From positions 1 through 27,802 of IMG/VR virus record IMGVR_UViG_3300020472_000138: a stretch of 27,802 bases of DNA. One strand, 5' to 3'. The position numbers and the translations under genes were made by a program. The notes beneath the pieces were generated by a model. That model made no database searches, had not been told where the DNA came from, and saw nothing but the letters and a program-made list of their open reading frames with translations. This stretch comes from a virus. Below, piece after piece: positions 4,716 to 20,067 of the stretch (within the stretch, counting starts at the first letter, position 1; each line of letters begins with the position of its first letter).

Positions 4716-7700
4716 TTATTTATCTGATAGTTTTTGTTCAAGGTTATCAACCTTATCTGACAATTCTTTAATTGCCTCAATTAATAGTGGAACAAGTTTT
4801 TCATACTGAACAGTTAGGTATTCATTATTAGTTGGAGCAGGTTTAACTGCCTCTGGTAATACTTCTTGAATTTCTTGTGCGGATACACCAGCAAATCTTT
4901 GATCTCCAGTATCAACATTACAATCAACCCTAGCAGTTTCATTATGTTTATAAGTAAATCCATTAATTGATTTAACTTTCTCAAGAGCCTTTGTTATCGG
5001 TGAAATTTCATCCTTAAGTCTAATATCAGATACAAATGCTGTAATATCATCAGTAACACGTAATTCACCTGTTACCTTAGCTCCTGTTTGAATAGTTTCA
5101 AATCTTAAACCTGGACTAGTTCCTCTCCAGTAAAGTTGTACACCACCAGCAGAATCAAATATACCAATATTATTACCTATCTCATCTTCAATCTCAACTC
5201 TATTAGCACTCATTATGGAGATTGATTTTTCTTCAGATTTAAGAATGCAGTGGCCACTACTTAATGTATCATAATATATTTGTAAACGAGGATCACTTGA
5301 AGTTTGACCAAATGTTGCTTTAATATTATCATTGAAATGAAGTGCTGTACCTGCTCCAGGAAGAGGAAGTCCTGTTAATTGAGAACCATCCCCAATAAAT
5401 GCTGTTGCAGTTACATTATTCATTCCACTTATATTTGTAGCAGTATCACCAACAATATTTCCATTAGCAGTTATATTACCAGTTACAACAACATTTTCTG
5501 TAACATTAACTGTTTTAGCAACGTTGACATCATTACTTACATGGAGATCTCCACCAACTCTCAAGGTTAGACCAATACCAACACCACCAGTAACGGTCAG
5601 TGCAGCATCAGTTGTACTGGAAGCATCAGTGCTATCTGTTGATTGCAACTTACCTGAAGCATCTAATGTATCATTAACTTTAACTGTCTTGTTAAATGTA
5701 ACAGGGCCATCAAACTGTGATAACACATCAGTAGAATCACCACCCTCTACAACAAGTCTTTCTTTTACAACTAACTCATCATATACAGAACTTAATCTTG
5801 ATGGTACTTGACCAGTAACGGTTGAAACAGGAGTATCGTATGTAGTAATCTCTCCAGTAGCAGAAGATGTTTTTCTGTTACCAATATAGAAGTCACCACT
5901 ACTATTCATACCAGTATATACAACAATACCAGCACCCTTCTCTTGAGATTGAGATAAGAACTCTTCCCTTTCAGTTAGTGTTTTATCTTGAACTTGAGGT
6001 AATGAAGTTGAATAGTTACCTGGACCATATCCAAGATATTCAAATGTATGCCCTGAACAACGAATCAGTGAAGGTCTACGGAACTCAATAGGGATTGGTT
6101 TAATCTTCATCATAAGTGAACCAGCATCATGTGCAGCAGTTTGAGTTGCTAATGCACCACGAATAACTGTAACTGTATCATTAGATGCACCACTTAAAGT
6201 TGGAAGTGCTACCCTAAAGATTTCATCATCTATTTGGAAATAAGAACCATAAGGGAATCTATCTATAGGACTTGTATTTGGACCAGGTAAGTGACCAATA
6301 CGTACCGTATTATTACCTGCACCTGCACCAATAGCATCTAACGCTACTCCTAGTTGATTATCATAAAGTGGATTAGCTCTAATACTTAAGTTTTCAGCAG
6401 TTGAATCAGAAACATTTTCATTAGCAGCATACCCCATTCTATGCACATCAGTTGCGTTTGTGATATGTACGTCAGATGCTATTTCAAACTGTGTGACACT
6501 ATTAACTGTTTTAACAAAAAAGTCGCCTATATCAGTAGTAATATCGTTATATAAATCTAGTAGTTTAACCTGATTACCAGCAACAAATCCATGAGGATCG
6601 TCTGCACTAGTATTAAAGATCATGACTTTGCGTGTTGCATCAAAGCTATTACTATCAATTACTCTAACTGGACCTAGATTTATAGCTACCTGATTTGGAA
6701 CAGGCATAGGCCAACTTGCTGCTTTCTTAACAACAACTGTAGTATCATTAGTAATACTCCAAATTCTTGCATAATTATCGCCAGCAGTTCCAACTCCAGT
6801 AAACTGCAAGACATTCTTTGCACCTGTATGAATACCAGTAATTGAAAGAGTAAGTCTAGCATTATTACCACCAGCACCTATAGATGTCTGATCAAAAAAT
6901 AATGCTCCAGGAGCATATCCAGAACCTGGTGATACTATATCAGCAGAAGCAACATTACCACCACTAACGGTTAGATTAGCAGTTGCTCCTTGCCATGTTC
7001 CTGTTTGTGATGTATTCAGTATCTTGACGTTTTGGTACGTTCCATTCGCATATCCAGTACCAGCAGTTATTACACCAGTTGAAATACCAGCAAATCCATG
7101 TCTTTCGGAGAATTCAACACTCACAAGTGTACTAGTGACACCAACAACGGGAGAGTATTCAACAGATTTTACACTATTACCAATACCTAGTACCTTAGTT
7201 AAATCATCTATACTTTCTCTTGTTAGACTATATTGAAGATCATTTGTTACAACATCACCAAGAGGAGATCTCTTTGCAAATGATTGAGAAGGTGCGGGAT
7301 TATCCCTTACATTATCCCTGTCTAACTGTGGATAGAGATTGACAACATTCTGACTGTATTTTTGAGATGTAAATACCTCTGGTGGTGCATTCTTTGCATC
7401 AAAGACATATAAATGATAGACACCATCCTGTTGATCCTGTATATATTCTGAAATCTGTTCGTTTCTGTAAATATAAAGGTTGGATTGGATATTATTTCGT
7501 GAGTATCTAGGTAATGCAGTAGATCTAACAGTGCTATTATTTGTAGATACTGTTCCATGTAGTTTAGGACATTCATATGAGAATTCCATATCACTAGGAA
7601 CTTCACTTACCACAAATGTACCATTATATCCAGTATTTGCTATACCAGTTGTATTTTGAGTATCAGTAACTCCTGTAACAATGATTGAGTCGCCAACATT

Positions 7701-10307
7701 AACATCATGAGGTATTTCTGTTCTAATGGTTGCAACTGAAGTTGTTCCAGGTGAAGTACATGTAGCAATAAACCTTGGATTTCTTTCAAAGAAGTAATCT
7801 TCTTCAGTTAATTGGGTATTTAATGTGAAGTCTGCATCAGATCTCGCACCTGTATCACTAGATGGTTGAATAGCAAATCCTGCTTCTGGATTTTTAGCAA
7901 CTCCTGCAGTACTAGGGATTACAACCCTTACCTTATAAATCTTTTCATCCAAACTTCTAGTATCATCTATTCTCCTAAAGGTACTAACTTCACTAGCACC
8001 ACTTCCACTTAATGTATCCCATATATCATTACCAGTAGGGTTAGTTTCGATATACCAACCAACTTGTCCAGTAGAACTATACTGAACTGGATGTCCAGCA
8101 TCACCAGCAGTTTTATCAGTTACTCTGGAAAGGATTTCAAGTTCTGTACCTCCAGATACAGTAATATTATTCCCTTTTATAGCATTAGTATAAGAAGATG
8201 CTAACTGAACTTTAGTTGTTCCATCTTGGATTATATAATAGACAGTATCAACTTCAATATTTTCTGGCAAATCTCCTGTTGTACTACGAACAACAACTTT
8301 TTCAGCAGTACTGAAGATATTTGTACCAATAGTGAAACTATTAGTAGTAGAAGAAGGTGAACTTGTTACACTATACCCATAGTTACAACTGTGGTATGAA
8401 GGGTTATTAGGGATTACAATACTTGCTGTTTTTGATACTCCACCTATAGTTAAGTATAAGGTCTCACTAACTTTTGCACCAATCTTATAACCCTGTTGAG
8501 TAACTGGGGGCGGAACGTCTTGATCAGCATATCCTTGAAGATACAATCTTGTCTTAGCTGTATGTGCTTTTGTTTTGGTAATATCTAGTGCTAACCAGTT
8601 AATATCTTCTTCACTTGTTTCGATTGCTCTAGGTGGTATAATAGAAGTTATAACTGCCTTATCATCTTTAGTAAATGATTCCTTCTTAAATCCTTCAGAA
8701 ACCAATGCTAACTGACCAAAGTTTGAGTTAGAGTTTGTAATAGAAGCATCACCACCATTTTGTGCAGCAAAATGCTTTGTATATCCAATAGCAAATACAG
8801 AAACAATTTGAAGAACAGCATCATTAGTGATGTCTATATGACATGTCTCCCATCCTGGTCTATACACAGCACCAGAATCTAAATGATATGCTTGACCTGT
8901 ACCTGTAGCAGAGGATTGAGCTGATAATGTACTACCATTCTCTGTTGCATATGTAATACCATTATAACTACGTGATGACGAATCATATTTTACGAATGCA
9001 CGATCATCTTTCTGTAGAGATATACCCGTAAACTGGGCAACAACCATAGAACGGAAACCAGTACACTTCTCACCATCTGCCTTCATTCCATTCATACCAT
9101 AAACTGAACGCATCGAACAGTTAAAGATATATGGAGATGCACCTTTTACAGTATCAGTTTCAACTGTAACGGTAGCAGCAGAGGTTCCACCAGGAGGGAA
9201 AGGTGCTGCAATACCAGGGATATTATAGTAGAATACTTTAGGGTTAGTATTACTTACTCCAGACACAAGAGTAGAAACATTATATTGAGGTACTCCACCA
9301 ACACCTCTAATCTTAATAGGTGTTCCAACATCAAGATTATGATCAGTTGCTGTTGTAACAGTTACTTGCTCATTTACATTACCAAGACCATCACCAGCAA
9401 AGATTGAAGTAATGACTACAGGATCGTTAGCAAAAGCACCTACAATCTCAAATTCAGGTAGTTGCTTATCAAATGCTTGTGGATTTTCAGGATATTTTTC
9501 TGAATCTTCTACTGGTCTTCCAGAACCTGAATTATATGCGTTAGATACCTTGGCATAATACATATCAAGATCAGTTAGATCATAATAGAATGTACCACCA
9601 GAACCAGTATATTCTACCTTATTAACACCATCACAATACTCAAAACAAGTTAGTTTATGATGAGAGAATATAGGAGTAGCCAACAAACTAAAATCTTCAT
9701 CATCAGTATAAACTTCAGTTAAATCATTTCCATCAAATATAGAAAACTGCCAGAAGTAACAAGAACCAGTTATTCTAAAAATAGCAGAATCAGGGGTATT
9801 AGGATCTGTAGGGTTAGGTACATATAATGGACGAATCCTAGTCTTTCTTAAATCTTGTCCAACAATAGAAGTACCTCTAGGTACTACTACACCACCATTT
9901 ACACTATTAAACTTATAAAGTATATTACTATCTTGAGTTAAATCAAAGTTTGAATTTAAGTTTAAATCTAAATCTGTTCTAGCAGCACTTCCTGACCCTG
10001 ATATTCCTGCTTTCTTTACTTTAGCAGTACCAGCATCATTCCATATTGCTTCTCCTGGCCTGTTATCTACAAGATGCTCACCAGGCATTAGCATTATTGT
10101 TGTTCTTTCTATCAAGTCGTTATTTCTTCCCTTGACATAAGAGAACCTTGCTGCTTCTATAAGGGCTCTCTGTATAGTCTTGAATGGACGTGCCAATGAC
10201 GTACCTTCATTACTAATACTATCGGTAGAATCTAAATCGCTTGGACTCACATAAAGAATCCGTCCATCAGTATTCTTTATAAAGTTATCTAATTTATTCA
10301 GTGGCAT
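4716..10307 (-). CDS. Giant tail fiber with S74 self-cleaving chaperone
   Basis: The largest gene of the window, 1863 residues. The first 90 residues (MPLNKLDNFIKNTDGRILYV, then ARPFKTIQRALIEAARFSY) match the conserved N-terminal head of cyanophage long tail fibers, a beta-helix-like module. The middle is long and strand-rich. Around residues 1085-1140 are ITAGTGYANGTY and IVSPGSGYAPG motifs, and around 1640 an FIGDGSQLTGLP motif. The last 104 residues form a Peptidase_S74 intramolecular chaperone beginning at the Ser-Asp of SDIRLKDEIS (Ser about 1760) and ending in a coiled coil (ELSDKVDNLEQKL). In this family the domain directs trimer folding and then cuts itself off before that serine. A CTAAATA late motif lies 34 bases upstream. 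Likely role: host recognition. Confidence 0.9.
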   Translation of the reverse strand: MPLNKLDNFIKNTDGRILYVSPSDLDSTDSISNEGTSLARPFKTIQRALIEAARFSYVKGRNNDLIERTTIMLMPGEHLVDNRPGEAIWNDAGTAKVKKAGISGSGSAARTDLDLNLNSNFDLTQDSNILYKFNSVNGGVVVPRGTSIVGQDLRKTRIRPLYVPNPTDPNTPDSAIFRITGSCYFWQFSIFDGNDLTEVYTDDEDFSLLATPIFSHHKLTCFEYCDGVNKVEYTGSGGTFYYDLTDLDMYYAKVSNAYNSGSGRPVEDSEKYPENPQAFDKQLPEFEIVGAFANDPVVITSIFAGDGLGNVNEQVTVTTATDHNLDVGTPIKIRGVGGVPQYNVSTLVSGVSNTNPKVFYYNIPGIAAPFPPGGTSAATVTVETDTVKGASPYIFNCSMRSVYGMNGMKADGEKCTGFRSMVVAQFTGISLQKDDRAFVKYDSSSRSYNGITYATENGSTLSAQSSATGTGQAYHLDSGAVYRPGWETCHIDITNDAVLQIVSVFAIGYTKHFAAQNGGDASITNSNSNFGQLALVSEGFKKESFTKDDKAVITSIIPPRAIETSEEDINWLALDITKTKAHTAKTRLYLQGYADQDVPPPVTQQGYKIGAKVSETLYLTIGGVSKTASIVIPNNPSYHSCNYGYSVTSSPSSTTNSFTIGTNIFSTAEKVVVRSTTGDLPENIEVDTVYYIIQDGTTKVQLASSYTNAIKGNNITVSGGTELEILSRVTDKTAGDAGHPVQYSSTGQVGWYIETNPTGNDIWDTLSGSGASEVSTFRRIDDTRSLDEKIYKVRVVIPSTAGVAKNPEAGFAIQPSSDTGARSDADFTLNTQLTEEDYFFERNPRFIATCTSPGTTSVATIRTEIPHDVNVGDSIIVTGVTDTQNTTGIANTGYNGTFVVSEVPSDMEFSYECPKLHGTVSTNNSTVRSTALPRYSRNNIQSNLYIYRNEQISEYIQDQQDGVYHLYVFDAKNAPPEVFTSQKYSQNVVNLYPQLDRDNVRDNPAPSQSFAKRSPLGDVVTNDLQYSLTRESIDDLTKVLGIGNSVKSVEYSPVVGVTSTLVSVEFSERHGFAGISTGVITAGTGYANGTYQNVKILNTSQTGTWQGATANLTVSGGNVASADIVSPGSGYAPGALFFDQTSIGAGGNNARLTLSITGIHTGAKNVLQFTGVGTAGDNYARIWSITNDTTVVVKKAASWPMPVPNQVAINLGPVRVIDSNSFDATRKVMIFNTSADDPHGFVAGNQVKLLDLYNDITTDIGDFFVKTVNSVTQFEIASDVHITNATDVHRMGYAANENVSDSTAENLSIRANPLYDNQLGVALDAIGAGAGNNTVRIGHLPGPNTSPIDRFPYGSYFQIDDEIFRVALPTLSGASNDTVTVIRGALATQTAAHDAGSLMMKIKPIPIEFRRPSLIRCSGHTFEYLGYGPGNYSTSLPQVQDKTLTEREEFLSQSQEKGAGIVVYTGMNSSGDFYIGNRKTSSATGEITTYDTPVSTVTGQVPSRLSSVYDELVVKERLVVEGGDSTDVLSQFDGPVTFNKTVKVNDTLDASGKLQSTDSTDASSTTDAALTVTGGVGIGLTLRVGGDLHVSNDVNVAKTVNVTENVVVTGNITANGNIVGDTATNISGMNNVTATAFIGDGSQLTGLPLPGAGTALHFNDNIKATFGQTSSDPRLQIYYDTLSSGHCILKSEEKSISIMSANRVEIEDEIGNNIGIFDSAGGVQLYWRGTSPGLRFETIQTGAKVTGELRVTDDITAFVSDIRLKDEISPITKALEKVKSINGFTYKHNETARVDCNVDTGDQRFAGVSAQEIQEVLPEAVKPAPTNNEYLTVQYEKLVPLLIEAIKELSDKVDNLEQKLSDK
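4717..4724 (-). promoter_or_regulatory. Late promoter motif GATAAATA before the 699-residue fiber gene
   Basis: GATAAATA on the minus strand, matching the T4 late promoter at seven of eight positions. It overlaps the TAA stop of the giant fiber gene (4716-4718) and lies about 20 bases from the next ATG. Confidence 0.5.
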
Positions 10308-11012: not shown

Positions 11013-11041
11013 AGTATAGCAGATACCTGCTGGTTTGTCAA
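11013..11041 (-). promoter_or_regulatory. Sigma70-like promoter TTGACA-N17-TATACT
   Basis: On the minus strand TTGACA occupies 11036-11041 and TATACT 11013-11018, with exactly 17 bases between. The -35 is the full consensus and the -10 matches five of six. It overlaps the TGA stop of the upstream fiber-like gene (11038-11040) and is the strongest promoter by consensus in this half of the window. Confidence 0.75.
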
Positions 11042-11349
11042 ATTACAGTAAAGTTGGATCCAGTAGGTACGGTAACAGTCACACTTGAATCAATTGTTAT
11101 AGGGCCTCCACAAAAAGCATTTTTTCCTTCCGTTATTGTATAATCTTTAGTTATATTTGTATCATTTTCATAAAAGACTCCATTAATAGCAATCTCATTG
11201 CCACTAAGAGGGACATTAGTCAATCCTGATCCATCACCAACAAATTTGGTAGCAGTTACAATACCTGATGCTACTATATTTTTAGAATCAACACTTGAGC
11301 CGACAATTAAATCTTCTGATGTATAAATGGTTTCATTAAATGCTTTCAT
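11038..11349 (-). CDS. Short fiber-like structural protein, 103 residues
   Basis: Starts MKAFNETIYTSEDLIVGSSV. Residues 28-46 contain GIVTATKFVGDGSGLTNVP, the same motif found in both long fibers of this window, and the rest is Thr/Val/Gly-rich and strand-like (SSVTVTVPTGSNFTVI at the C-terminus). Its ATG overlaps the stop of the beta-helix spike gene as TAATG, so it is the last gene of the hub operon. It could be a small fiber or a tip/collar piece bound to the spike; the sequence shows only a fiber-like fold tendency. A sigma70-like promoter for the next gene begins within its stop codon. Confidence 0.7.
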   Translation of the reverse strand: MKAFNETIYTSEDLIVGSSVDSKNIVASGIVTATKFVGDGSGLTNVPLSGNEIAINGVFYENDTNITKDYTITEGKNAFCGGPITIDSSVTVTVPTGSNFTVI

Positions 11350-11897
11350 TATCCCACTCCATAAGAATCTCTAATACCATCAACCATACCACTGACCAAA
11401 CTATCAACACTATCAACTACACCAGAGAATGGTCCTTGTTTTAAATGTTTTCCCAAGTTACCTCCTCCACTACTTACGTTTACTTGATTTGCCTGTAAAA
11501 TTACTTGAGATGTTTCTCCTTTGGATGTTCCTACTTCAACAATACCATTAGCATGAAGAGAAATATTTTTCTCGGCACTTAAAATAATACTGTTATTAGA
11601 ATGTAATACAATATCACCATCAGCATTTACAGAAATCTTACCTTTCCAACAGGTAAGTTGCATCCCAGTATCGGAATCAGTAGATTTATTGGCAACATCA
11701 ACTTGAAATCTTTCTTCAGTTTCAAATCTCGTAAGACCACCATCATGATGGGCAAGTACAACTCTTTTGTTTGAAGCGTTTTCACCTTTTAAGGCCCATG
11801 CTTCAGGCCCAGCCGTTCCACTCTCAGGATTGTCTGTCTCAATATAGAGTTTAGGCCCTAAAACTTCCTGTCTAGTAGCATCATTAGCTTTACTCAT
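11349..11897 (-). CDS. Beta-helix spike protein (gp5 C-terminal-like)
   Basis: A 182-residue protein starting MSKANDATRQEVLGPKLYIE. Residues about 85-145 form regular short beta repeats: GKISVNADGDIVLHSNNSI, ILSAEKNISLHANGI and VEVGTSKGETSQVILQANQV. This pattern resembles the triple-stranded beta-helix of T4 gp5 C-terminus and VgrG/gpV spikes, the needle that pierces the outer membrane. The C-terminus is Ser/Val/Asp-rich (FSGVVDSVDSLVSGMVDG). The ATG overlaps the end of the 624-residue gene (TTGATGAGTAA context); an in-frame TTG one codon earlier is a less likely start. Here the spike is a separate protein from the OB-fold gp5 encoded two genes upstream. Confidence 0.7.
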   Translation of the reverse strand: MSKANDATRQEVLGPKLYIETDNPESGTAGPEAWALKGENASNKRVVLAHHDGGLTRFETEERFQVDVANKSTDSDTGMQLTCWKGKISVNADGDIVLHSNNSIILSAEKNISLHANGIVEVGTSKGETSQVILQANQVNVSSGGGNLGKHLKQGPFSGVVDSVDSLVSGMVDGIRDSYGVG

Positions 11898-13764
11898 CAA
11901 TCTTACCTATACAGTCAATAACTTTAATAATATCACCTTGTGGTTTTATGGGAGACATAATAGGACGTAATATAGCTCCAACACCAGTGCTTGTATTGAT
12001 ATTTAGTTCTGGTAATGTAGTGTATGCTGCTCCATTTACCAAACTAACATTAGTTATTCTACCATCTATGATTTCCAACTCAAAGTCTTGTAATGTATCA
12101 TCTACTTGATAAGAACCACCTTCATTAGCAATAACAACACCTGAAACATATAATGGAACATCTTCACCATCAGCAGAATAGTTTTCACCAGGAGTAACCA
12201 TAGTGACACTAGTTACTTGGCCATAGGTAGGAGAGTATTGATTATTATCAATCGTTGCTTCAGCAACAGCACCATAACCTTCATTACAATCATCATCAAT
12301 GGACACAACAGGTGAACTTGTATATCCACTACCAGGATCAGTAATCTCTACTCCTGCAATACTTGCGGTTCTTCTTATAGCACCCCAAATATCATTTGTA
12401 TCTATTTTGTTAATAAAATCAGCAAAAATAAGTTTACCTTTAGCTCCAGATCCTCCACCACCTAGAATAGATACACTAGGTCCACTACATTCAGTATCAC
12501 AGGGTGAAAGTGCTGATGATGATCCACTTGAAGGAGATCCAAAAACATCCCATTGACCATACTTTTTCTCAAAGTCTGTTAATCCAGAGACCGTCTGTGC
12601 TGCTGCTTGAGCAATACCCACACCTTCAAACATTTTAGCAAAACTTGCTGTTGCTGAAGCAATACTGGTACCTTGTGTCTGTCCTTTACCTGCTACGTAC
12701 TTATTACTTGGTGGGCAAGTTGGTGTCTCTTCACAGTTGAAAGTATCTTTAACTCTGTTCACCACATCAACACTACTAGTTAAGAAAGCTATTGGATCGA
12801 AAGAAAACCCAAGTTGCTCTCCTAGAGGTTCTACTAGTGGACCAATCACATCATTAAGTTTAGTAGTTATATCATTCATAATAGCACCCATTATCTCTTC
12901 AGTAACACATGAAGTTGGATTTGTTACATTTGCAGCTGCTGCAGTTAATAAATCAATAACTGAATCTTTCAGTGCTTTTTGAATATCTACTCCTCCACAA
13001 GTAATCTTATTGAATAGATTACTAGCAGTAGTCGCAAGAGGAAGTTGTTGAGCAATAGTCATTTTAACAGCTAATGCCTTAGGATAAGTAGGAGATATTT
13101 TAGCAAACTCCATATTCTTTATCATTGAATAACCACCTGCCATTTTTGCTGCTAGTGCCATATTCGTATCAGAAGTCATCTTATTAACTACAGAACCCAT
13201 ACTATTACTAATCTGCGAAGCAACTTGTCTAATCTCTTCAGGCATATTTAAAGATTTTACACTAGGTGATGTTGTCATATTAAGGAAGTTACCAAGACTT
13301 GCTTGCACTTGATCAAAAGCAGTATTCTTACAAGGATCTGCTTGAATTATAGTTCTTCCTGTAACATCACTATCAGAACTTACACATTCATCTGCTGCCC
13401 TAATAAACTGATTCCTTTTCTCCTTTTGTGGAGGTGTAAGATTGCTATATTTTTTAGGACGTATATTACCCAAGACTTCTGGAAATAGATCCTTTGCTTC
13501 TTCAACAATACCTTTTAGTTTAGCACTTCTAGGATCTGATTCTATAAGTTGAGTAAAATATTGTTTTTGAAGAATATCAAGTTGAGCAGGAGCAGGTGTT
13601 TTAACAGTACTAAACTGCTTTTCTCTCCCCATAGTACTATTCCATGCCGTATTATATACATCTAAAGGAATGGAATTTGCACCATATTGTGCTTTCAACT
13701 CGTCATGGGTTTTATCCCATTTTGCTCTTCTTGCTCTTATTTGTTGTATATTTGAATTTGTCAT
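11890..13764 (-). CDS. Baseplate hub-associated structural protein, 624 residues
   Basis: The gene sits between the gp5 OB-fold gene and the spike gene, so it is almost certainly a virion hub component. Residues 1 to about 350 look helical and alanine-rich, with conserved-looking cysteines (DECVSSD, CGGVD, TSCVTEE, FNCEETPTCPP). A Gly/Ser linker follows near residue 430 (ILGGGGSGAKGK). The C-terminal third has repeated beta modules: EITDPGSGYTSSPVVSI, VTMVTPGENYS, VIANEGGSYQVDD and VSLVNGAAYTTLPEL. Related GSGY modules occur in the giant fiber. No Shine-Dalgarno sequence precedes the start, and the short gap contains an AATAAATA motif. I recognise it as a type of cyanophage structural protein but cannot name a T4 equivalent. 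Confidence 0.75.
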   Translation of the reverse strand: MTNSNIQQIRARRAKWDKTHDELKAQYGANSIPLDVYNTAWNSTMGREKQFSTVKTPAPAQLDILQKQYFTQLIESDPRSAKLKGIVEEAKDLFPEVLGNIRPKKYSNLTPPQKEKRNQFIRAADECVSSDSDVTGRTIIQADPCKNTAFDQVQASLGNFLNMTTSPSVKSLNMPEEIRQVASQISNSMGSVVNKMTSDTNMALAAKMAGGYSMIKNMEFAKISPTYPKALAVKMTIAQQLPLATTASNLFNKITCGGVDIQKALKDSVIDLLTAAAANVTNPTSCVTEEIMGAIMNDITTKLNDVIGPLVEPLGEQLGFSFDPIAFLTSSVDVVNRVKDTFNCEETPTCPPSNKYVAGKGQTQGTSIASATASFAKMFEGVGIAQAAAQTVSGLTDFEKKYGQWDVFGSPSSGSSSALSPCDTECSGPSVSILGGGGSGAKGKLIFADFINKIDTNDIWGAIRRTASIAGVEITDPGSGYTSSPVVSIDDDCNEGYGAVAEATIDNNQYSPTYGQVTSVTMVTPGENYSADGEDVPLYVSGVVIANEGGSYQVDDTLQDFELEIIDGRITNVSLVNGAAYTTLPELNINTSTGVGAILRPIMSPIKPQGDIIKVIDCIGKIDE

Positions 13765-13769
13765 AGTAA

Positions 13770-13777
13770 TATTTATT
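13770..13777 (-). promoter_or_regulatory. Possible late promoter motif AATAAATA
   Basis: AATAAATA on the minus strand, overlapping the TAA stop of the gp5-like gene (13776-13778). It is only about six bases from the next ATG, so a transcript from it would be leaderless. It could equally be chance in AT-rich DNA. Confidence 0.25.
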
Positions 13778-14456
13778 ATGCTTGATCAATAAGTTGATCT
13801 ACTATATCACCTACTGAAGTATCCGTTACCTGATTTACTATATCACCTACTGAAGTATCCATTACCTCTAGAGTATCATTAAGTAATCCAGCTGCCTGTG
13901 CAAGTGGTTGAGCAAAACCACCTATTGTTGGCATTCCTGTAGGTAATCCTGCTTTCGCCATAGCTGCTAATGGTGATTTTCTTTTAGGTTTTGCAGTTCC
14001 AGATTTTGCTTTTGGAGTACATAGAGGAACTTGTTCACTAAATTCCTGTCTTCCTAAAAGTGTTCCTGCTTTAGTGGAACCAATAAATCCAGTCTTTGAA
14101 TCAAATCTTTGTGTACCATATTTGTTTCCTTGTGGCCTTCCCAGAACACCAGTAATCAGAGGATTTTGTTTCCTATCTCCATCTAGAAACTTACCTGTAA
14201 CGACATCACCTTGAGATATTGCTGGTGTTTTCTTTCTATTCCCTGCTCCAGTACCATCAGTAGGGCCAAGTCTTACAAGAGCATATACAATATCTTTATC
14301 TTTAATAGTATTGTTATTAGGATGATTGCCCATCATAGCAACCTTAAATCTATAACCAAATCCAGCATTACCATCAGATTGATCTTTTTGAGATTCATAT
14401 GGTAAAACTATACCAATCCATTCGTGGGTTCCTAACCCGAAATAATCATTATCCAT
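13776..14456 (-). CDS. 5: Baseplate hub OB-fold protein, gp5 N-terminal-like, no lysozyme
   Basis: A 226-residue protein. Residues about 10-115 match the OB-fold of T4 gp5: HEWIGIVLPYE, YRFKVAMMGNHP, YALVRLGPTDG, GDVVTGKFLDGD and PLITGVLGRPQG. This fold sits on the gp27 trimer in the T4 hub. T4 gp5 has 575 residues with a lysozyme domain and a beta-helix; both are absent here. The C-terminus instead is basic and proline-rich (KAKSGTAKPKRKSP) and ends in a duplicated 12-residue unit, DTSVGDIVNQVT followed by DTSVGDIVDQLI. It starts in a TAATG overlap with the gp27-like gene. The beta-helix function appears to be supplied by the separate protein at 11349-11897. Confidence 0.8.
   Translation of the reverse strand: MDNDYFGLGTHEWIGIVLPYESQKDQSDGNAGFGYRFKVAMMGNHPNNNTIKDKDIVYALVRLGPTDGTGAGNRKKTPAISQGDVVTGKFLDGDRKQNPLITGVLGRPQGNKYGTQRFDSKTGFIGSTKAGTLLGRQEFSEQVPLCTPKAKSGTAKPKRKSPLAAMAKAGLPTGMPTIGGFAQPLAQAAGLLNDTLEVMDTSVGDIVNQVTDTSVGDIVDQLIDQA
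13795..13866. repeat. Tandem 36-base duplication inside the gp5-like gene
   Basis: Two 36-base units, 13795-13830 and 13831-13866, share an identical 24-base core (13801-13824 and 13837-13860). They encode the C-terminal DTSVGDIV[N/D]Q repeats. The near-identity suggests a recent duplication. Confidence 0.85.
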
Positions 14457-15814
14457 TATGCTTTCTTAGTGTTTTTTGAAAAATGCATTCCATAAGAATC
14501 TCTTATCAAATTTATAGAAGTAACTGATTTCTCTGGTTCAAAGTAATGACATAACGATTGAATAATATAGACACCACTTGCTTTTTGATCAGGGCCTTGT
14601 TCTTTATTATCAGAAACCTTTTCAATTTCTAAATTTAAAGTATCTCCTGCCTCCAAATCAGTATTACAGGGAATGGTGATAGTATGTTTTTGTGAGAATA
14701 GTATATTATATCTAGTAGACCCTGCAGCATAGTATAATTCAGGACTATTATTTACATCAATATTTTCTTTTTCAGCACCATTATTCAATATAGCAGTTTG
14801 AACTCTATGAGAAGTATTACCTTCATTCATATCATCAATCAAAATTTGAGGAGTTTCTGGAGTTTTTCCTAGAGTAGAGAACTTGGGATCTTTAAACAGT
14901 TTTCCACTTTCAGATGAAACATCAAGCTCAGTAAACTTATAAGATGCTGGATCAAAAAATACGGTCTTATTAGAATATACACCAGATCTAATTTGAGATG
15001 TAAGATTCTGATCTTTCTCTGTTGTGAGGGTTGCTATTTTATAATCAGCATGTTCTTCATAAACGTGGCAGGGGACACCTCCATCATACCAATATGTTTG
15101 CTCGTAGGGTTCTTTATTAATCATCGAATCTGCTGAAACAAAATGGAATCCACTTCTAGTTTCATACGCAAAATAACCAGGATTAGCAGTATTTTGAGGT
15201 ATAGTTTGTTTTGCCAACATAGCAATCAAATCAAATGGTCTCTTCGTCATTCCTGCAAAAGCATATGAGTTACTTGAATCATCAACATGTATCATAGAAG
15301 AAGGCATTCTCATTTGGAATCGAGCAATGAATTTTACTGATTCAGAAATACGGTTACAATAGAAACCAGTAACTCTCTTTGTATTATTAGTCCATCCTAT
15401 CTTCGATATAACTCTAAGTTGAACCGTTTCTCTTGATGCATTTTTGTTTAAGACTGTAACTTCCTCAACGTATAGTTGTTTAAATGGATCCCTTTCATCA
15501 GTATAATCTATTCCTTTACCTAGAGTATCTTGTATCTTAATCAATATCCTACATCCTACCTCAAGAGGAAGAGCACTATGTAACGAACCTCTTCTTCCTT
15601 GAGTATCATCTTGATCTACAGCAGCATCAAGAGTACTTTGAATGGTTATCACTCCTGTAATATAAGGGGATAGAATATTTTCATAGAAGAATATACTAAG
15701 AATCCTAAAAGGAGCTCCATATTCTTTATACTCATCATCTCCAAGTTCTACACTATTTCTACCATTAGCAGAGATTATTTTAAACTTTTCGTATTTAGAT
15801 CCTTGTGCTTGCAT
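14456..15814 (-). CDS. 27: Baseplate hub subunit, gp27-like
   Basis: A 452-residue protein (T4 gp27 has 391). The N-terminal part reads KFKIISANGRNSVELGDD and FRILSIFFYENILSPYITG, a pattern typical of hub proteins, where two tube-like barrels form the ring joining tube and spike. Further hub-like features are YVEEVTVLNKN, SESVKFIARFQ and the C-terminal NTDLEAGDTLNLEIEKVSD and GVYIIQSLCHYFEPE. It lies directly upstream of the gp5 OB-fold gene, as expected for hub partners, with TAATG overlaps at both ends. Identification rests on these features and on context; sequence similarity to T4 gp27 itself is weak by eye. Confidence 0.75.
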   Translation of the reverse strand: MQAQGSKYEKFKIISANGRNSVELGDDEYKEYGAPFRILSIFFYENILSPYITGVITIQSTLDAAVDQDDTQGRRGSLHSALPLEVGCRILIKIQDTLGKGIDYTDERDPFKQLYVEEVTVLNKNASRETVQLRVISKIGWTNNTKRVTGFYCNRISESVKFIARFQMRMPSSMIHVDDSSNSYAFAGMTKRPFDLIAMLAKQTIPQNTANPGYFAYETRSGFHFVSADSMINKEPYEQTYWYDGGVPCHVYEEHADYKIATLTTEKDQNLTSQIRSGVYSNKTVFFDPASYKFTELDVSSESGKLFKDPKFSTLGKTPETPQILIDDMNEGNTSHRVQTAILNNGAEKENIDVNNSPELYYAAGSTRYNILFSQKHTITIPCNTDLEAGDTLNLEIEKVSDNKEQGPDQKASGVYIIQSLCHYFEPEKSVTSINLIRDSYGMHFSKNTKKA

Positions 15815-16866
15815 TATGGTAACCCCATTGTATTTCCTGATGATGATGATCCAACAGGTGATTTCATATTATCTCCACCTCCACCAGATGAACCACCTCC
15901 ACCTCCACCACCAACACGAACTACTTTTTCTATAGGTTGAACAATCACCTTTCCTTTATTCTTCTGTTTTTGAGTAGGGCCTAATCCCCCATTAGCAGAT
16001 TTTGTAACACTGAATCCATTTTTCCTTCCTTTATCTATTTCCTTTTGAATTTCTGGAGAAACTTGCGATTTTTGACTATTAAGTTTACTTTTTGCTTTAT
16101 CTCCCTTACCCTTTACTACTTTATTTACCCTACCCAGTACCGATTCCTTACTTATTGACTTTGATGATTGGTCCTGTTTATCATCAACCTTATTCATAGT
16201 ATCCTGTGCCTGAACAAAATCCGAAGATTCTTTCAATGCCTGACTTAATATCTTATCTTTTTTGTCTTCATCTTTCTTATCTTCTTGTTCTTCATCCTTA
16301 CCCTTTTCTCCACTAAATTCTTGCTTTTCAAGTTCCTTATTAATACCCTCATTACTCTTTATCATAGAGGTTTTTGCTTGTTCCAACTCTCTATTCTTCT
16401 TACCCAAACCCATTATTCCAGCTGCTGCCTTAAATATAAACATTATACCACCTGCCAGTTTACTCAATGCCCCCATTATAACATCCCAAATAGGTTTAAT
16501 AACATCGATTACTTTACCAATAGCATTAGCAAATCCACGTAGTTTTGTTATTAAAAAACCAACCAGTAATATTAATGTCGTCTTAATAATCTTTCCTAGA
16601 AATCCGCCCTTATTTCCTAAAATATTACCACCACCCGATTCCTGTTCATTAGAAGAGGATTTTTGAACAGTTTCTCTTGATTGTTGTTTGTCTCTTTGTA
16701 GTTGAATTTTCTTTAACTTATCTCTTTTCTTAAGTATGTTGCTTTTAATATTTCTAGCACTTAATTTTTTCTTTACGGCTTTTTTTGCAGCACCTTTGAT
16801 GGTCTGTTTTGCACCTTGTTTAGCAACCGCTTTTAAGGCTACTTTTGCTATTAATCCCCAGACCAT
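15814..16866 (-). CDS. Basic membrane-segment tail protein, possible second tape measure
   Basis: A 350-residue protein. Residues 1-70 are extremely lysine-rich (AVAKQGAKQTIKGAAKKAVK). Residues about 90-155 hold hydrophobic helices (IIKTTLILLVGFLITKL and IWDVIMGALSKLAGGIMFIF). Then comes a charged region (KGKDEEQEDKKDEDKKDKIL) and a flexible Gly/Ser C-terminus (VGGGGGGGSSGGGG). The basic head, hydrophobic helices and low-complexity tail resemble a tape-measure protein, and it starts immediately after the stop of the larger tape-measure-like gene (TAA then ATG). It may line the tube lumen or form a membrane pore during DNA entry. I cannot assign a T4 counterpart; gp29 function could be shared between this protein and its neighbour. 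Confidence 0.65.
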   Translation of the reverse strand: MVWGLIAKVALKAVAKQGAKQTIKGAAKKAVKKKLSARNIKSNILKKRDKLKKIQLQRDKQQSRETVQKSSSNEQESGGGNILGNKGGFLGKIIKTTLILLVGFLITKLRGFANAIGKVIDVIKPIWDVIMGALSKLAGGIMFIFKAAAGIMGLGKKNRELEQAKTSMIKSNEGINKELEKQEFSGEKGKDEEQEDKKDEDKKDKILSQALKESSDFVQAQDTMNKVDDKQDQSSKSISKESVLGRVNKVVKGKGDKAKSKLNSQKSQVSPEIQKEIDKGRKNGFSVTKSANGGLGPTQKQKNKGKVIVQPIEKVVRVGGGGGGGSSGGGGDNMKSPVGSSSSGNTMGLP

Positions 16867-19176
16867 TTAAGCCATTACCCCCAACTCTTCTTTCATCTTT
16901 GCTACATATGGATTTGATGCATCCTCAGGAGAAAGCATAGGCAATGAACTTCCTCCTATAGGTGTATCTAATGGTGTAATACCTCCACTTTGATCTTTTA
17001 TAAGATCATTAATAATAACTCTATTTGCATCTTCATCTCCTTCCAGGTTACCAGTTTTATTTACATTCTTATTTAATTTAGTTTTCTCACCCATTCCTAC
17101 GGCATCTGATACCATATCTGCTGCTTTACCACCAAGCATAGCACCACCAATACCACCAATCAAACCACCAAGAACTGCTCCTATAGCTGTTCCTGCACCT
17201 GGAATAACACTACCAATAGCAGCACCAATAGCAGCACCTTTACCAGCACCTGCCATTCCACCAAGTGTGGATCCTGCAGTACCTAATAATGCTTTTCCTT
17301 TAGTCTGTCCTTCCTCTAATCTACCTTTAAACTCCATACCAGCAAAAAGAACACTTAATACCCCTCCAGCACCTCTAGGAATTGGCAGTTTCTTGATTCT
17401 CTTGGCAACTATGTTACTTTTTTGTAGGGCTTTTCCAACAGGGCCCTTCACTCTTTTAAACTGTGCTACAGTTTTTGGTTTAATACCAAATGCTGCATCT
17501 GTAACGCCACCCTTAACAGATCTCATACCTGTCTTAGTAACTTTAGCACCAAATGCCTTGTTACGTGCACCTCTTAAACCTTTTCTAAGCCAGTTATTTT
17601 TACCTAAGTTCTTCCAACCCCTTGCTAGGTTCTTTGCAGTTTCAGAAATATACGTTCCAAACCCAAACCCCAAGATCGTCATCCAGTGTCGGCCAAAGAA
17701 ATTAAAGAATCCATCTATTGCCCCTGTATGATTTCTCAACCATTTTATAACTGGAGATGATATAAATCCAAGAAGGAGAACTGTAAATAAACTTTTAAGT
17801 CTACCCAATAAACCCATTACAGGTTTTTTTGCTTTATCAGCTACACCTTTACCTCTCTTCTCTGCAGCTTTACCAGAACCTTCTACACTTTCTTCTGCTG
17901 CTTTTCTTTTTGCATCTAGTTTTTTCTTTCTTGCTTTTTGTAGTAAGTTTCTTTCTTTCGTTATACGGTCAGCAAAGTCTAATGACATTGCATTTCCTAT
18001 ATCATTAAGAACAGTAGTTGTTTCTTCTAATGATTCTTTTATCTCCGATTGACTTTGTATTATATTATTAGTCTTTTCTTGTAACTCTGTAATGACAACA
18101 GGATCTGCATTCTGAGACTGACCTTTAGATTCCTCCTGTGCTTGCTGTGCTTGCTGTGCTTGCACTTGATTGTTTACTATCTCACCAGTAGTTTCATTTA
18201 ATGATGTAATAACCTCACTCTGTTGGGTCTGATTGTTTATTATAGTTTCTTGAGTCTCACGTAGAATCGAAGTATTACTTTGTATTCTACGGATTTTTAT
18301 ATTATTATCTCTTTGAGTTTTAATCTGACTATTTTGTAACCCTAGAAATCTCTCATTCTGTTCCTTCTGACTTTCAATTTGGTTGGTTTGTAATTTTTGA
18401 AGTTGTTCAGTCTGGATAGTCTGACTTTGAATCTGACTAGTTTGTATTTTTTGAAGTTGTTCGGTATGGATAGTCTGAGTTTGAATCTGACTAGTTTGTA
18501 AGTTTTGAAGTTGTTGACCCTGATCATGTTGGGTTTTAGAAGTTCTAGTAAGAACATTCATTATTACATCAACCCTAGAACTCAAGGATGCAAATGATTT
18601 TTGAAGACCATTTATCATCTTAACAATATGATCTCCAGCACCAGCACTTTGTGTAGGTTTAGATGCAGGTTTATCTACTTTAGGTACAGGTTTAACTGTA
18701 GGTTTAGCTGCCTTGGGTGTAGATGTAGCAGATGTAGGTTTAGATGCCTTGGGTGTAGATGTAGCAGATGTAGGTTTACTTATCTTGGATGGACTAGCAA
18801 GTTTACCTACCTTGGATGTAGGTTTACTTATCTTAGATTTAGATTTATCTTTAAGAGGTTCATCTACTTTAGGAGATGCAGGTTCTGCTGCCATTCTTCT
18901 CTGAGCAGCAGAAGAAGTGAATGACATAGATATCCCATCTGAGAATGTGCCATCCCATTTACTTAACTTAGAAAGCAAGTTCTCTGGTTTAACCTTAAGA
19001 GGTTTGGGTATCTTGGGTGCTTTAAATAAAGGTTGTTTTCCTAACTTAGGTTTGGATATATCCGATACTTTAATTTTTGACGCAGTAAGTTTTGGGCCAC
19101 CAGAAGCAAGTGCTGAACTTTTTACTAGTGTTTTCTTTAAAGATGCTTGTTGTGTATTTAAGTTAATAATTGCCAC
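16867..19176 (-). CDS. Tape-measure-like tail protein, 769 residues
   Basis: The probable tape measure. It starts at GTG 19174-19176; no ATG is nearby, and the first residues are MAIINLNTQQASLKKT after it. The N-terminal 200 residues are basic and proline-rich with KPTSATSTPKA repeats. Residues about 222-320 are a Gln-rich coiled coil of 18-residue repeats (QTSQIQTQTIHTEQLQKI type). Hydrophobic helices follow near 450-480 (SLFTVLLLGFISSPVIKWL), and a glycine-rich membrane-active-looking stretch at about 630-690 (GMAGAGKGAAIGAAIGSVIP). The gene lies directly after gp26 and its frameshift extension, the usual place for a tape measure after its chaperones. T4 gp29 has 590 residues. No lysozyme or peptidase motif is visible. 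Confidence 0.7.
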   Translation of the reverse strand: MAIINLNTQQASLKKTLVKSSALASGGPKLTASKIKVSDISKPKLGKQPLFKAPKIPKPLKVKPENLLSKLSKWDGTFSDGISMSFTSSAAQRRMAAEPASPKVDEPLKDKSKSKISKPTSKVGKLASPSKISKPTSATSTPKASKPTSATSTPKAAKPTVKPVPKVDKPASKPTQSAGAGDHIVKMINGLQKSFASLSSRVDVIMNVLTRTSKTQHDQGQQLQNLQTSQIQTQTIHTEQLQKIQTSQIQSQTIQTEQLQKLQTNQIESQKEQNERFLGLQNSQIKTQRDNNIKIRRIQSNTSILRETQETIINNQTQQSEVITSLNETTGEIVNNQVQAQQAQQAQEESKGQSQNADPVVITELQEKTNNIIQSQSEIKESLEETTTVLNDIGNAMSLDFADRITKERNLLQKARKKKLDAKRKAAEESVEGSGKAAEKRGKGVADKAKKPVMGLLGRLKSLFTVLLLGFISSPVIKWLRNHTGAIDGFFNFFGRHWMTILGFGFGTYISETAKNLARGWKNLGKNNWLRKGLRGARNKAFGAKVTKTGMRSVKGGVTDAAFGIKPKTVAQFKRVKGPVGKALQKSNIVAKRIKKLPIPRGAGGVLSVLFAGMEFKGRLEEGQTKGKALLGTAGSTLGGMAGAGKGAAIGAAIGSVIPGAGTAIGAVLGGLIGGIGGAMLGGKAADMVSDAVGMGEKTKLNKNVNKTGNLEGDEDANRVIINDLIKDQSGGITPLDTPIGGSSLPMLSPEDASNPYVAKMKEELGVMA
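18394..18501. repeat. Tandem 54-base repeat in the tape-measure gene
   Basis: Two 54-base units, 18394-18447 and 18448-18501, with about three mismatches, encoding two 18-residue Gln-rich coiled-coil units. Diverged copies continue on the downstream (lower-coordinate) side, so the protein shows about five 18-residue periods. Confidence 0.85.
18701..18772. repeat. Tandem 36-base repeat in the tape-measure gene
   Basis: Two 36-base units, 18701-18736 and 18737-18772, differ at one position and encode KPTSATSTPKA repeats in the basic N-terminal region. Related shorter pieces flank them on both sides. Confidence 0.85.
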
Positions 19177-19351
19177 TCTGTTGCTGCTTTAGATTTTCCT
19201 CTTCAATATATTGTTGGAGAAGTGAGATGTATATTTCTCTTTCCCACGGTATCATATTTTCAAGTTCTGTTAAGCTATATTTATGGTGTTGCATAAGAGC
19301 AAAGTTTGTCCGATAATAGTTCTCTAGACTCTCATGAGCTAGAGCTAACTG
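19163..19351 (-). CDS. -1 frameshift extension of gp26, 62 residues
   Basis: This frame lies -1 to gp26 and has no ATG, GTG or TTG until ATG 19292-19294, 19 codons in, and that ATG has no Shine-Dalgarno sequence. Read from the slippery site it gives QLALAHESLENYYRTNFALM, QHHKYSLTELENMIPWEREI, YISLLQQYIEEENLKQQQSGNY. The text is protein-like across its whole length, with an amphipathic helical C-terminus. It stops at 19163-19165, 14 bases inside the tape-measure gene. A gp26 fusion would have 301 residues. By analogy with lambda G/GT and P2 E/E', the extension would link the chaperone to the tape measure. If it is instead made alone, it would be a 43-residue protein from ATG 19294. I see no similarity to T4 gp51. 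Confidence 0.7.
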   Translation of the reverse strand, partial: QLALAHESLENYYRTNFALMQHHKYSLTELENMIPWEREIYISLLQQYIEEENLKQQQSGNY

Positions 19352-19357
19352 AAAAAA
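19318..19357 (-). promoter_or_regulatory. Probable -1 programmed frameshift signal
   Basis: On the minus strand the heptamer TTTTTTC (19357 to 19351) is in the right frame: T, TTT, TTC with codons Phe-Phe. After a six-base spacer, CTCTAG (19344-19339) pairs perfectly with CTAGAG (19327-19322) around an 11-base loop. The stem can extend by four pairs (AGTT 19350-19347 with AACT 19321-19318) across a two-base bulge. The gp26 stop codon lies in the spacer. Confidence 0.7.
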
Positions 19358-20067
19358 GACGCTAAACCCTCCAATACAACTTCACTCTCAACTTCAGTCT
19401 CTGGATTTTTTACTTTAATCTTATGAGATAGTTTAGGCATTGTATCAAAAAATGTTTCAATCTCCTTGAACTGTTTAGAATTCATTTGTTCAACAAAATC
19501 TTTAAGTTCCTTCTTGGTACACTCAGAAGCATCCCATGATTCTTCCTCATTATATACTTGACCAATACAAGCAGTAATCACATCTAATGATTTCTCAAGA
19601 TCACTATCCACTCCTGATAGTTCAAAGTTACTTTCAATGAACTGCGTCAATGAAGGATAATTCATCTGAATAGATAGATTATCATCAAGTTTTATAATAT
19701 TGGTATGCTTCTCATTCTTTTGAACTTTTATAGAATCAATATCTATTTGCAAAGGAACTTGAGTTACACCATCATCAGGACATGTAACATTCACGTCAAC
19801 TGTTTCACCAACCGACTTAGCACGAACATTTAAAAATAAATATTCAATATCAAAAGTTGCTAGTTTCTCAATCCTGATACCTTTAGATAAAATACAGTTA
19901 CTAATAACATTTTTAATAGCATTTGTAATCTGCTTGGTATCTTCTGATTCTAATGCAATGACTAGAATCTTCTCCTCTTTAACTAAAAAAGGTCTATACT
20001 TTACTTTCCTTCCACTTGAGGGTAATACTAACTCATATGTAGGGGCAGAAATCTTGGGTAAAGGCAT
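19345..20067 (-). CDS. 26: Baseplate hub assembly protein gp26
   Basis: A 240-residue protein (T4 gp26 has 208) of the T4 baseplate gp26 family. It starts MPLPKISAPTYELVLPSSGR and contains KYRPFLVKEEKILVIALESE, then KNVISNCILSKG, a FDIEYLFLNVRAKSVGE segment and CPDDGV, all typical of the family. In T4, gp26 takes part in central hub assembly. Here it is the first gene of the hub operon, and its last codons carry a slippery TTTTTTC before the TAG stop, so it is probably the short product of a frameshift pair with the 62-residue extension. Late motifs AATAAATA and CTAAATA lie upstream in the divergent intergenic region. The start has only a weak GAAG as ribosome binding site. Confidence 0.85.
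   Translation of the reverse strand: MPLPKISAPTYELVLPSSGRKVKYRPFLVKEEKILVIALESEDTKQITNAIKNVISNCILSKGIRIEKLATFDIEYLFLNVRAKSVGETVDVNVTCPDDGVTQVPLQIDIDSIKVQKNEKHTNIIKLDDNLSIQMNYPSLTQFIESNFELSGVDSDLEKSLDVITACIGQVYNEEESWDASECTKKELKDFVEQMNSKQFKEIETFFDTMPKLSHKIKVKNPETEVESEVVLEGLASFFS

Follow-up and report, generated by a model that had tools for sequence, protein, structure and literature searches.

T4 gp5 is the textbook cell-puncturing device, and our Pfam search agrees with the first-pass annotation of the locus studied here that its OB domain, lysozyme and C-terminal repeats lie in one chain. In the gp5 of Kyanoviridae-type cyanophages (P-SSM2 PSSM2_019, 752 amino acids (aa); S-SKS1 SWZG_00253, 670 aa; PHROG 1922), the OB domain is followed in the same polypeptide by a second part, here called MID, and a spike homologue lies in the next gene. 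Pfam finds no lysozyme in any of the five gp5 proteins of this kind tested (P-SSM2, S-SKS1, P-SSM4, Syn9 and MED4-213). The strong divergence of gp5 in pelagimyophages and cyanophages has been ascribed to the host wall (PMC7029224). Wall-cutting domains in a hub protein, and not in the spike, are described for the Anabaena myophage A-1(L), which differs from the locus studied here in its compact, different baseplate and in a spike protein that unites an OB and a beta-strand domain (PMC10966104). Here we analysed the hub and spike genes in a stretch of 27,802 nucleotides from the virus record IMGVR_UViG_3300020472_000138 (the window), which covers only part of a genome, most of it lying outside. 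We consider it probable that these genes belong to a marine T4-like, probably cyanobacterial, phage in which gp5 is cut after the OB domain, the wall is punctured mechanically and a swappable enzyme slot lies upstream of gp27. The features concerned are:

11349..11897, minus strand: SPK, likely spike, 182 aa (ATG) or 183 aa (TTG at 11900), based on an AlphaFold2 (AF2) model, VIA, PHROG 3363 and hhalign
11890..13764, minus strand: MID, homologue of the remainder of cyanophage gp5, 624 aa, based on PHROG 1922, AF2 and fold match
13770..13777, minus strand: AATAAATA, late-promoter-like octamer found by motif search, overlapping the OB stop codon and ending just before the MID ATG
13776..14456, minus strand: OB, the gp5 N-terminal OB-fold domain as a protein of its own with a variable C-terminal tail, 226 aa, based on PHROG 1922 and an alignment of the OB region
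14456..15814, minus strand: hub protein of 452 aa resembling gp27, based on PHROG 350 (tail protein, E 3.3e-68) and on a gene order shared with P-SSM2
15814..16866, minus strand: slot H, the protein directly upstream of gp27, 350 aa, homologue of a modular hydrolase carrier, no Pfam match

The separate genes for OB-fold and spike that the first-pass annotation had described are confirmed as part of three adjacent open reading frames (ORFs; 14456-13776, 13764-11890 and 11900/11897-11349), with MID between them. OB matches PHROG 1922 (baseplate hub/tail lysozyme) at positions 20-133 (E 1.3e-21) and MID matches it at 189-656 (E 3.1e-50), so that the two cover consecutive parts of the same gp5 family. 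T4 gp5 matches this family too (16-183, E 3.9e-11), and the hhalign alignment of the window OB to T4 gp5, weak with a probability of 24.8%, falls in the T4 OB region (26-103); Pfam Gp5_OB gives no match in the window OB. A MID homologue is not found in T4 gp5 (hhalign 0.2%), which by these tests shares the OB part alone. Since cyanophage gp5 holds OB and MID in one chain, MID is the C-terminal body of cyanophage gp5 severed from its OB domain and not an added joiner, although it plausibly joins OB to the spike, and cyanophage gp5 replaces T4 gp5, chosen by the first-pass annotation, as the fitting standard of comparison. Measured against T4, which has an OB domain as well and a beta-helical spike where the window has a likely one, the division into three genes is real, but a separate spike and a missing lysozyme are ordinary for cyanophages such as P-SSM2 and S-SKS1. 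The hub of Synechococcus phage ACG-2014f also has a MID-containing gp5 followed by a gene that matches the SPK profile (38.7 bits), but with OB and MID fused.

The division between OB and MID is widely conserved. Among the 102 loci of a first set that hold both parts, many of them sharing a contig, 98 have them on separate ORFs; as the split proteins served as query for this set, it is biased toward the split form. The fused form is found in four loci, P-SSM2, S-SKS1 and two that come from a single contig (L016 and L044; L-numbers denote loci of relatives). After clustering at 90% gapped identity, 45 of the 47 clusters are represented by a split locus and two by the fused P-SSM2 and S-SKS1, with L016 inside a split cluster. 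In comparison with L013, L016 lacks the stop, the motif and the ribosome site, and therefore looks like a secondary fusion; as a single contig it could also be an assembly product. In a second set of 80 loci around a SleB-like domain, 35 hold OB and MID, of which 30 have them on one ORF, three are split (L062, L106, L107) and two mixed (L140, L171), which argues that the split marks a marine lineage, the fused form being common elsewhere.

At the break itself, the window ORFs are in different frames and 11 nt apart, with a stop, the motif and a new ATG between them, and a GGAGG-type ribosome site is often present at this position in the relatives. The octamer corresponds to NATAAATA, described as the late promoter of cyanophage S-PM2 (PMC2984593). 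Within 60 nt upstream of the start codon it occurs in 39 of 45 cluster representatives at MID, where mononucleotide shuffling of these segments gives an expectation of 2.4, and never at OB (0/45), SPK (0/44) or gp27 (0/44), counts that come from related rows and are not independent events. A hand-picked set gives the same picture (MID 43/50 with 2.8 expected; OB 0/49, SPK 0/49, gp27 0/48, slot H 0/45), and in three of its seven misses (L024, L025, L027) an 87-aa ORF occupies the gap, with NATAAATA ahead of that ORF. This small ORF was seen in the 272-278-nt OB/MID gap of six contigs (L021, L022, L024, L025, L027, L028). What stands out is the position of the motif and not its number: the window as a whole has nine copies against 20 in mononucleotide shuffles, so an overall excess is dismissed. 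Unlike the window group, P-SSM2 and S-SKS1 have no NATAAATA at the OB/MID junction. The motif is missing inside the fused gp5 genes of P-SSM2 and L016; one copy lies near the 3' end of the S-SKS1 gp5 gene and one directly after the P-SSM2 gp5 stop, before the spike gene. This pattern suggests that gp27 and OB are carried on one transcript and MID and SPK on another.

For SPK, the AF2 monomer model (predicted local distance difference test, pLDDT, 79) consists of an N-terminal beta domain (about 9-61), a beta-helix-like part (about 64-145) and a C-terminal helix, and we take a beta-helix as likely. The model has no Foldseek match at E<=0.001, and Pfam DUF2345 is matched below the cut-off (E 0.001). 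In VIA, VgrG is the top row (Z 6.4, 132 residues, root-mean-square deviation 4.4), and the top rows (Z 4.3-6.4) comprise VgrG, extracellular contractile injection system (eCIS), phiKZ, P2 gpV and T4 gp5 spikes besides unrelated folds, e.g. a proteasome chain at Z 4.9. VgrG/eCIS spikes may resemble SPK in architecture (Z 4.7-6.4); in these systems gp27-, OB- and spike-like parts are fused. Sequence searches of the PDB yielded weak or chance matches at most for the SPK, MID and OB profiles; VgrG for SPK (E 0.0021) was the best. A spike gene of its own is also seen in other cyanophages. The gene after S-SKS1 gp5 belongs to PHROG 3363 (E 1.9e-88), which SPK also matches (4e-4), and the gene after P-SSM2 gp5, without a PHROG match of its own, aligns at 97.7% in hhalign to an SPK profile built without the P-SSM2 row. 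In MED4-213, too, gp5 is followed by a spike-like gene (Gp5_trimer_C, E 0.0013, below the cut-off).

With respect to wall cutting, Pfam finds no lysozyme in the OB, MID, SPK, gp27-like, 350-aa and 769-aa proteins of the window, nor any hydrolase in the last two, whereas the same library recovers Phage_lysozyme (PF00959) in T4 gp5; the lack of a lysozyme in OB and spike, as first annotated, is thereby supported. The further expectation that peptidoglycan-crossing activity comes from elsewhere holds for many relatives, in which the protein directly upstream of gp27 carries a lytic domain, but none is recognised in the homologue from the window, which matches no Pfam family at E 0.01 or at E 1. 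Its relation to these proteins shows in a phmmer search seeded with just the first 170 residues of the L054 protein, in which the window protein scores 21.8 bits (E 5.4e-7; the set of 51 sequences is small and its E-values are lenient). After iteration, the N-terminal module is found in 48 of the 51 sequences, the misses being the truncated L053, an S-SKS1 ORF and the 769-aa contrast protein.

A Pfam scan of 94 proteins encoded one or two genes upstream of gp27 (92 of 99 listed and two from the window) revealed Peptidase_M23 in nine, Amidase_2 in two and Phage_lysozyme2 in one. In slot H, these domains are an amidase in L062, M23 in L050, L057, L067, L070, L081 and L093 (L050 and L070 below the cut-off) and Phage_lysozyme2 in S-SKS1. 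The M23 and L062 amidase labels rest on Pfam, those of L056 and L059 on a matching motif, that of L068 on similarity by eye to L057, and the label of L051 as amidase homologue on 46% identity to L062 over 508 residues; lysozyme-like (L053, L089), YkuD-like (L054, L063) and C40-like (L098, L104) cassettes were labelled by eye. No firm match came from PDB searches with the L089, L098 and L062 cassettes (best for L098, an NlpC/P60 peptidase at E 0.26), and the PF00182 profile was uninformative, as no control matched. The M23 domains appear to be circularly permuted, the GPHIHIE motif (by eye GPHVHIE in L067) standing about 50 residues before HRGxDY, and the best Pfam pieces on them are half-profiles:

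L050:1954-3609, L059:2442-4094, L067:2497-3771, L070:2657-4168 and L093:763-2427: apparently permuted M23, recognised by motif order

Two genes before gp5, at the place of slot H, ACG-2014f, unlike the window, encodes a protein with Phage_lysozyme, the family of T4 gp5 (E 2.2e-15), plus M23, and RN05-S one with M23, preceded by a gene labelled endolysin. The Pfam scan found no hydrolase in slot H of MED4-213, P-SSM2, P-SSM4 (last 756 residues scanned) and Syn9 (last 904). Besides slot H, a site following OB is occupied in L062 by a SleB-like domain at the N-terminus of MID (Hydrolase_2, E 3e-4, below the cut-off). In the second set, the SleB-like domain is found on an ORF that precedes OB in 45 loci (in 37 of them 0.9-1.7 kb away, which leaves room for gp27, and in eight about 4 kb away), follows OB in four (L062, L106-L108), and has no OB seen with it in 31. 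Among 54 of 63 OB-tail and MID-extension segments scanned with Pfam, L062 alone contains a hydrolase.

The exchange of cassettes becomes visible when they are placed on a MID tree of 49 rows, where the type changes at least nine times among 18 carriers. L050 and L051 share 96% identity in MID and only 35% in slot H (195 residues), with M23 in the one and the amidase homologue in the other; in L089 and L098 the values are 88% and 44% (126 residues). The window falls within a 23-row clade (Shimodaira-Hasegawa-like approximate likelihood ratio test, SH-aLRT, 99) with no cassette recognised in any row, and a neighbouring clade of 13 rows (SH-aLRT 100) has a cassette in every member, six of the 13 labelled by eye. 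All 23 rows of the window clade have a slot H of 315-381 aa, vs 424-574 aa in 16 untruncated marine carriers.

Several observations weigh against a marine hub with mechanical puncture and an empty enzyme slot. Cassette presence changes at least five times on the tree and P-SSM2, outside the clade, has no recognised cassette, so that the absence need not stem from a single loss. The cargoes of L054, L063, L089 and L098, enzyme-like by eye, have no Pfam hydrolase match, and an enzyme of a family missed by the profiles is conceivable in the window phage too. Six larger records, which may be incomplete (152 kb and 84 kb, both of the window clade, AG-345-L05, a 94-kb contig, P-SSM2 and S-SKS1), were searched with nine lytic families (M23, Amidase_2, Phage_lysozyme2, Phage_lysozyme, Hydrolase_2, SLT, VanY, M15_3, M15_4), and five of them match none; S-SKS1 alone matched, twice, Phage_lysozyme2. 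The structural matches of SPK to spikes are all below Z 8, come from a monomer model and are mixed with unrelated folds, and in the window so little sequence separates the motif from the MID ATG that a transcript begun there would have almost no leader.

As a lytic phage needs an endolysin and five of six records show none, our searches must have overlooked one enzyme or more, and we offer the lack of a virion hydrolase in the window clade as a hypothesis. We give an even chance to the alternative that such an enzyme exists, either in a protein encoded beyond the 27.8-kb record or, in a form that the profiles would have missed, within slot H, the tape measure or MID. The partial genome in the window record, the VanY domain of MED4-213 two genes before gp27 and the cassette-like domains without a Pfam hydrolase match all speak for it, together with the five unmatched records; the short slot H proteins of the window clade leave little room for it, and no lysozyme occurs among the best 50 of 66 PDB matches to the MID model.

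The MID model (AF2, pLDDT 74.5) shows long helices at about 149-342 (174-220, 229-279 and 285-318) and a beta-rich part at 430-604. Its best viral fold match is gp5 of ACG-2014f (E 1.5e-20), and the top viral matches are largely cyanophage gp5. The long helices could indicate a membrane-active part that forms or opens a DNA channel rather than a structural clamp, and relatives do match tape-measure PHROGs (S-SKS1 gp5, E 1.1e-5; L087 MID, E 2.1e-6) and, below the cut-off, SseC (L020 MID, 0.0014). We regard this as improbable, as tape-measure-type matches are common for Ala/Gly-rich helices, Foldseek finds no solved fold in the PDB at E<=0.001 and VIA returns only helical-bundle-type rows, all below Z 8. 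Seven cysteines (C256, 286, 344, 422, 426, 493 and 618) are invariant in 44 aligned MID rows and possibly form disulfides or metal sites. Some MID proteins carry a C-terminal extension with a His-rich GYVNGxxYYGPFHxH...MVG motif and a low-complexity Ser/Thr tail (L013:8338-8715, L016:8272-8577, L018:8416-8778, L062:7531-7908).

That the OB/MID break is merely a sequencing or assembly frameshift or the decay of a single gp5 gene, as the change of frame over 11 nt and the fused ORFs of P-SSM2, S-SKS1 and 30 of 35 second-set loci might suggest, is hardly credible given that 45 of the 47 clusters are divided at this point, where a stop codon, the conserved motif and frequently a ribosome site are found, and that six contigs have the 87-aa ORF inside the gap.

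For the divided hub we propose that the gp5 polypeptide of the relatives is cut where the OB domain ends. A predicted OB trimer, made from the transcript of gp27, would be seated on the gp27 trimer, while MID and spike would be expressed from their own late promoter and the tip would assemble below OB by non-covalent contacts and puncture by mechanical force. The wall-cutting enzyme that T4 holds inside gp5 would correspond to the swappable cassette directly upstream of gp27 in many relatives, with none recognised in the window clade. A far-reaching version, in which an entire clade of marine T4-like phages gave up its virion peptidoglycan hydrolase and passes the wall by force alone, close relatives swap lysozyme, amidase, endopeptidase or other cassettes in one hub protein, and a new late promoter cut gp5 so that collar and tip are expressed as separate modules, seems rather unlikely to us.

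The surroundings identify the window as a fragment of a T4-like myovirus with homologues of gp26, tail tube, gp53, gp32 and gp59, a tail-cap match falling below the cut-off. Of six relative records tested, three (G001, G002 and Marine virus AG-345-L05) carry psbA, which makes a cyanobacterial host likely for the window phage. On the minus strand, gp26 and a 769-aa protein precede slot H, followed by gp27, OB, MID and SPK:

16867..19176, minus strand: tape-measure-like protein, 769 aa, best PHROG matches of unknown function or tape measure
19345..20067, minus strand: T4 gp26-like baseplate protein (PF12322, E 4.9e-73)

The 769-aa protein matches the 'tail associated lysin' PHROG 1047 over 414-698 only. 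In S-SKS1, the gp27-like protein is split over two ORFs (L003:3209-4533). A 103-aa protein at 11038-11349 resembles in its C-terminal half the ends of far larger proteins, one of a tail fibre family, and the gene in its place encodes 1010 or 875 aa in L004 and L007. An 1863-aa protein at 4716-10307 ends in a Peptidase_S74 chaperone domain.

Most of this architecture is cyanophage standard; what seems new is a gp5 whose division is marked by a promoter, together with a lytic slot that is exchangeable or empty. The OB/MID split, the cassette exchange and the permuted M23 are undescribed in the titles and abstract openings among the matches listed, which is no proof of absence. The label 'tail lysozyme' on gp5 in many cyanophage records is called into question by the five proteins tested. 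In these marine relatives of T4, collar, wall cutting and piercing are placed on separate genes, with a cutter that is exchangeable or unrecognisable and a likely late promoter dividing collar from tip. Whether contractile tails can pass through cyanobacterial peptidoglycan without a lytic enzyme thereby becomes accessible to experiment.

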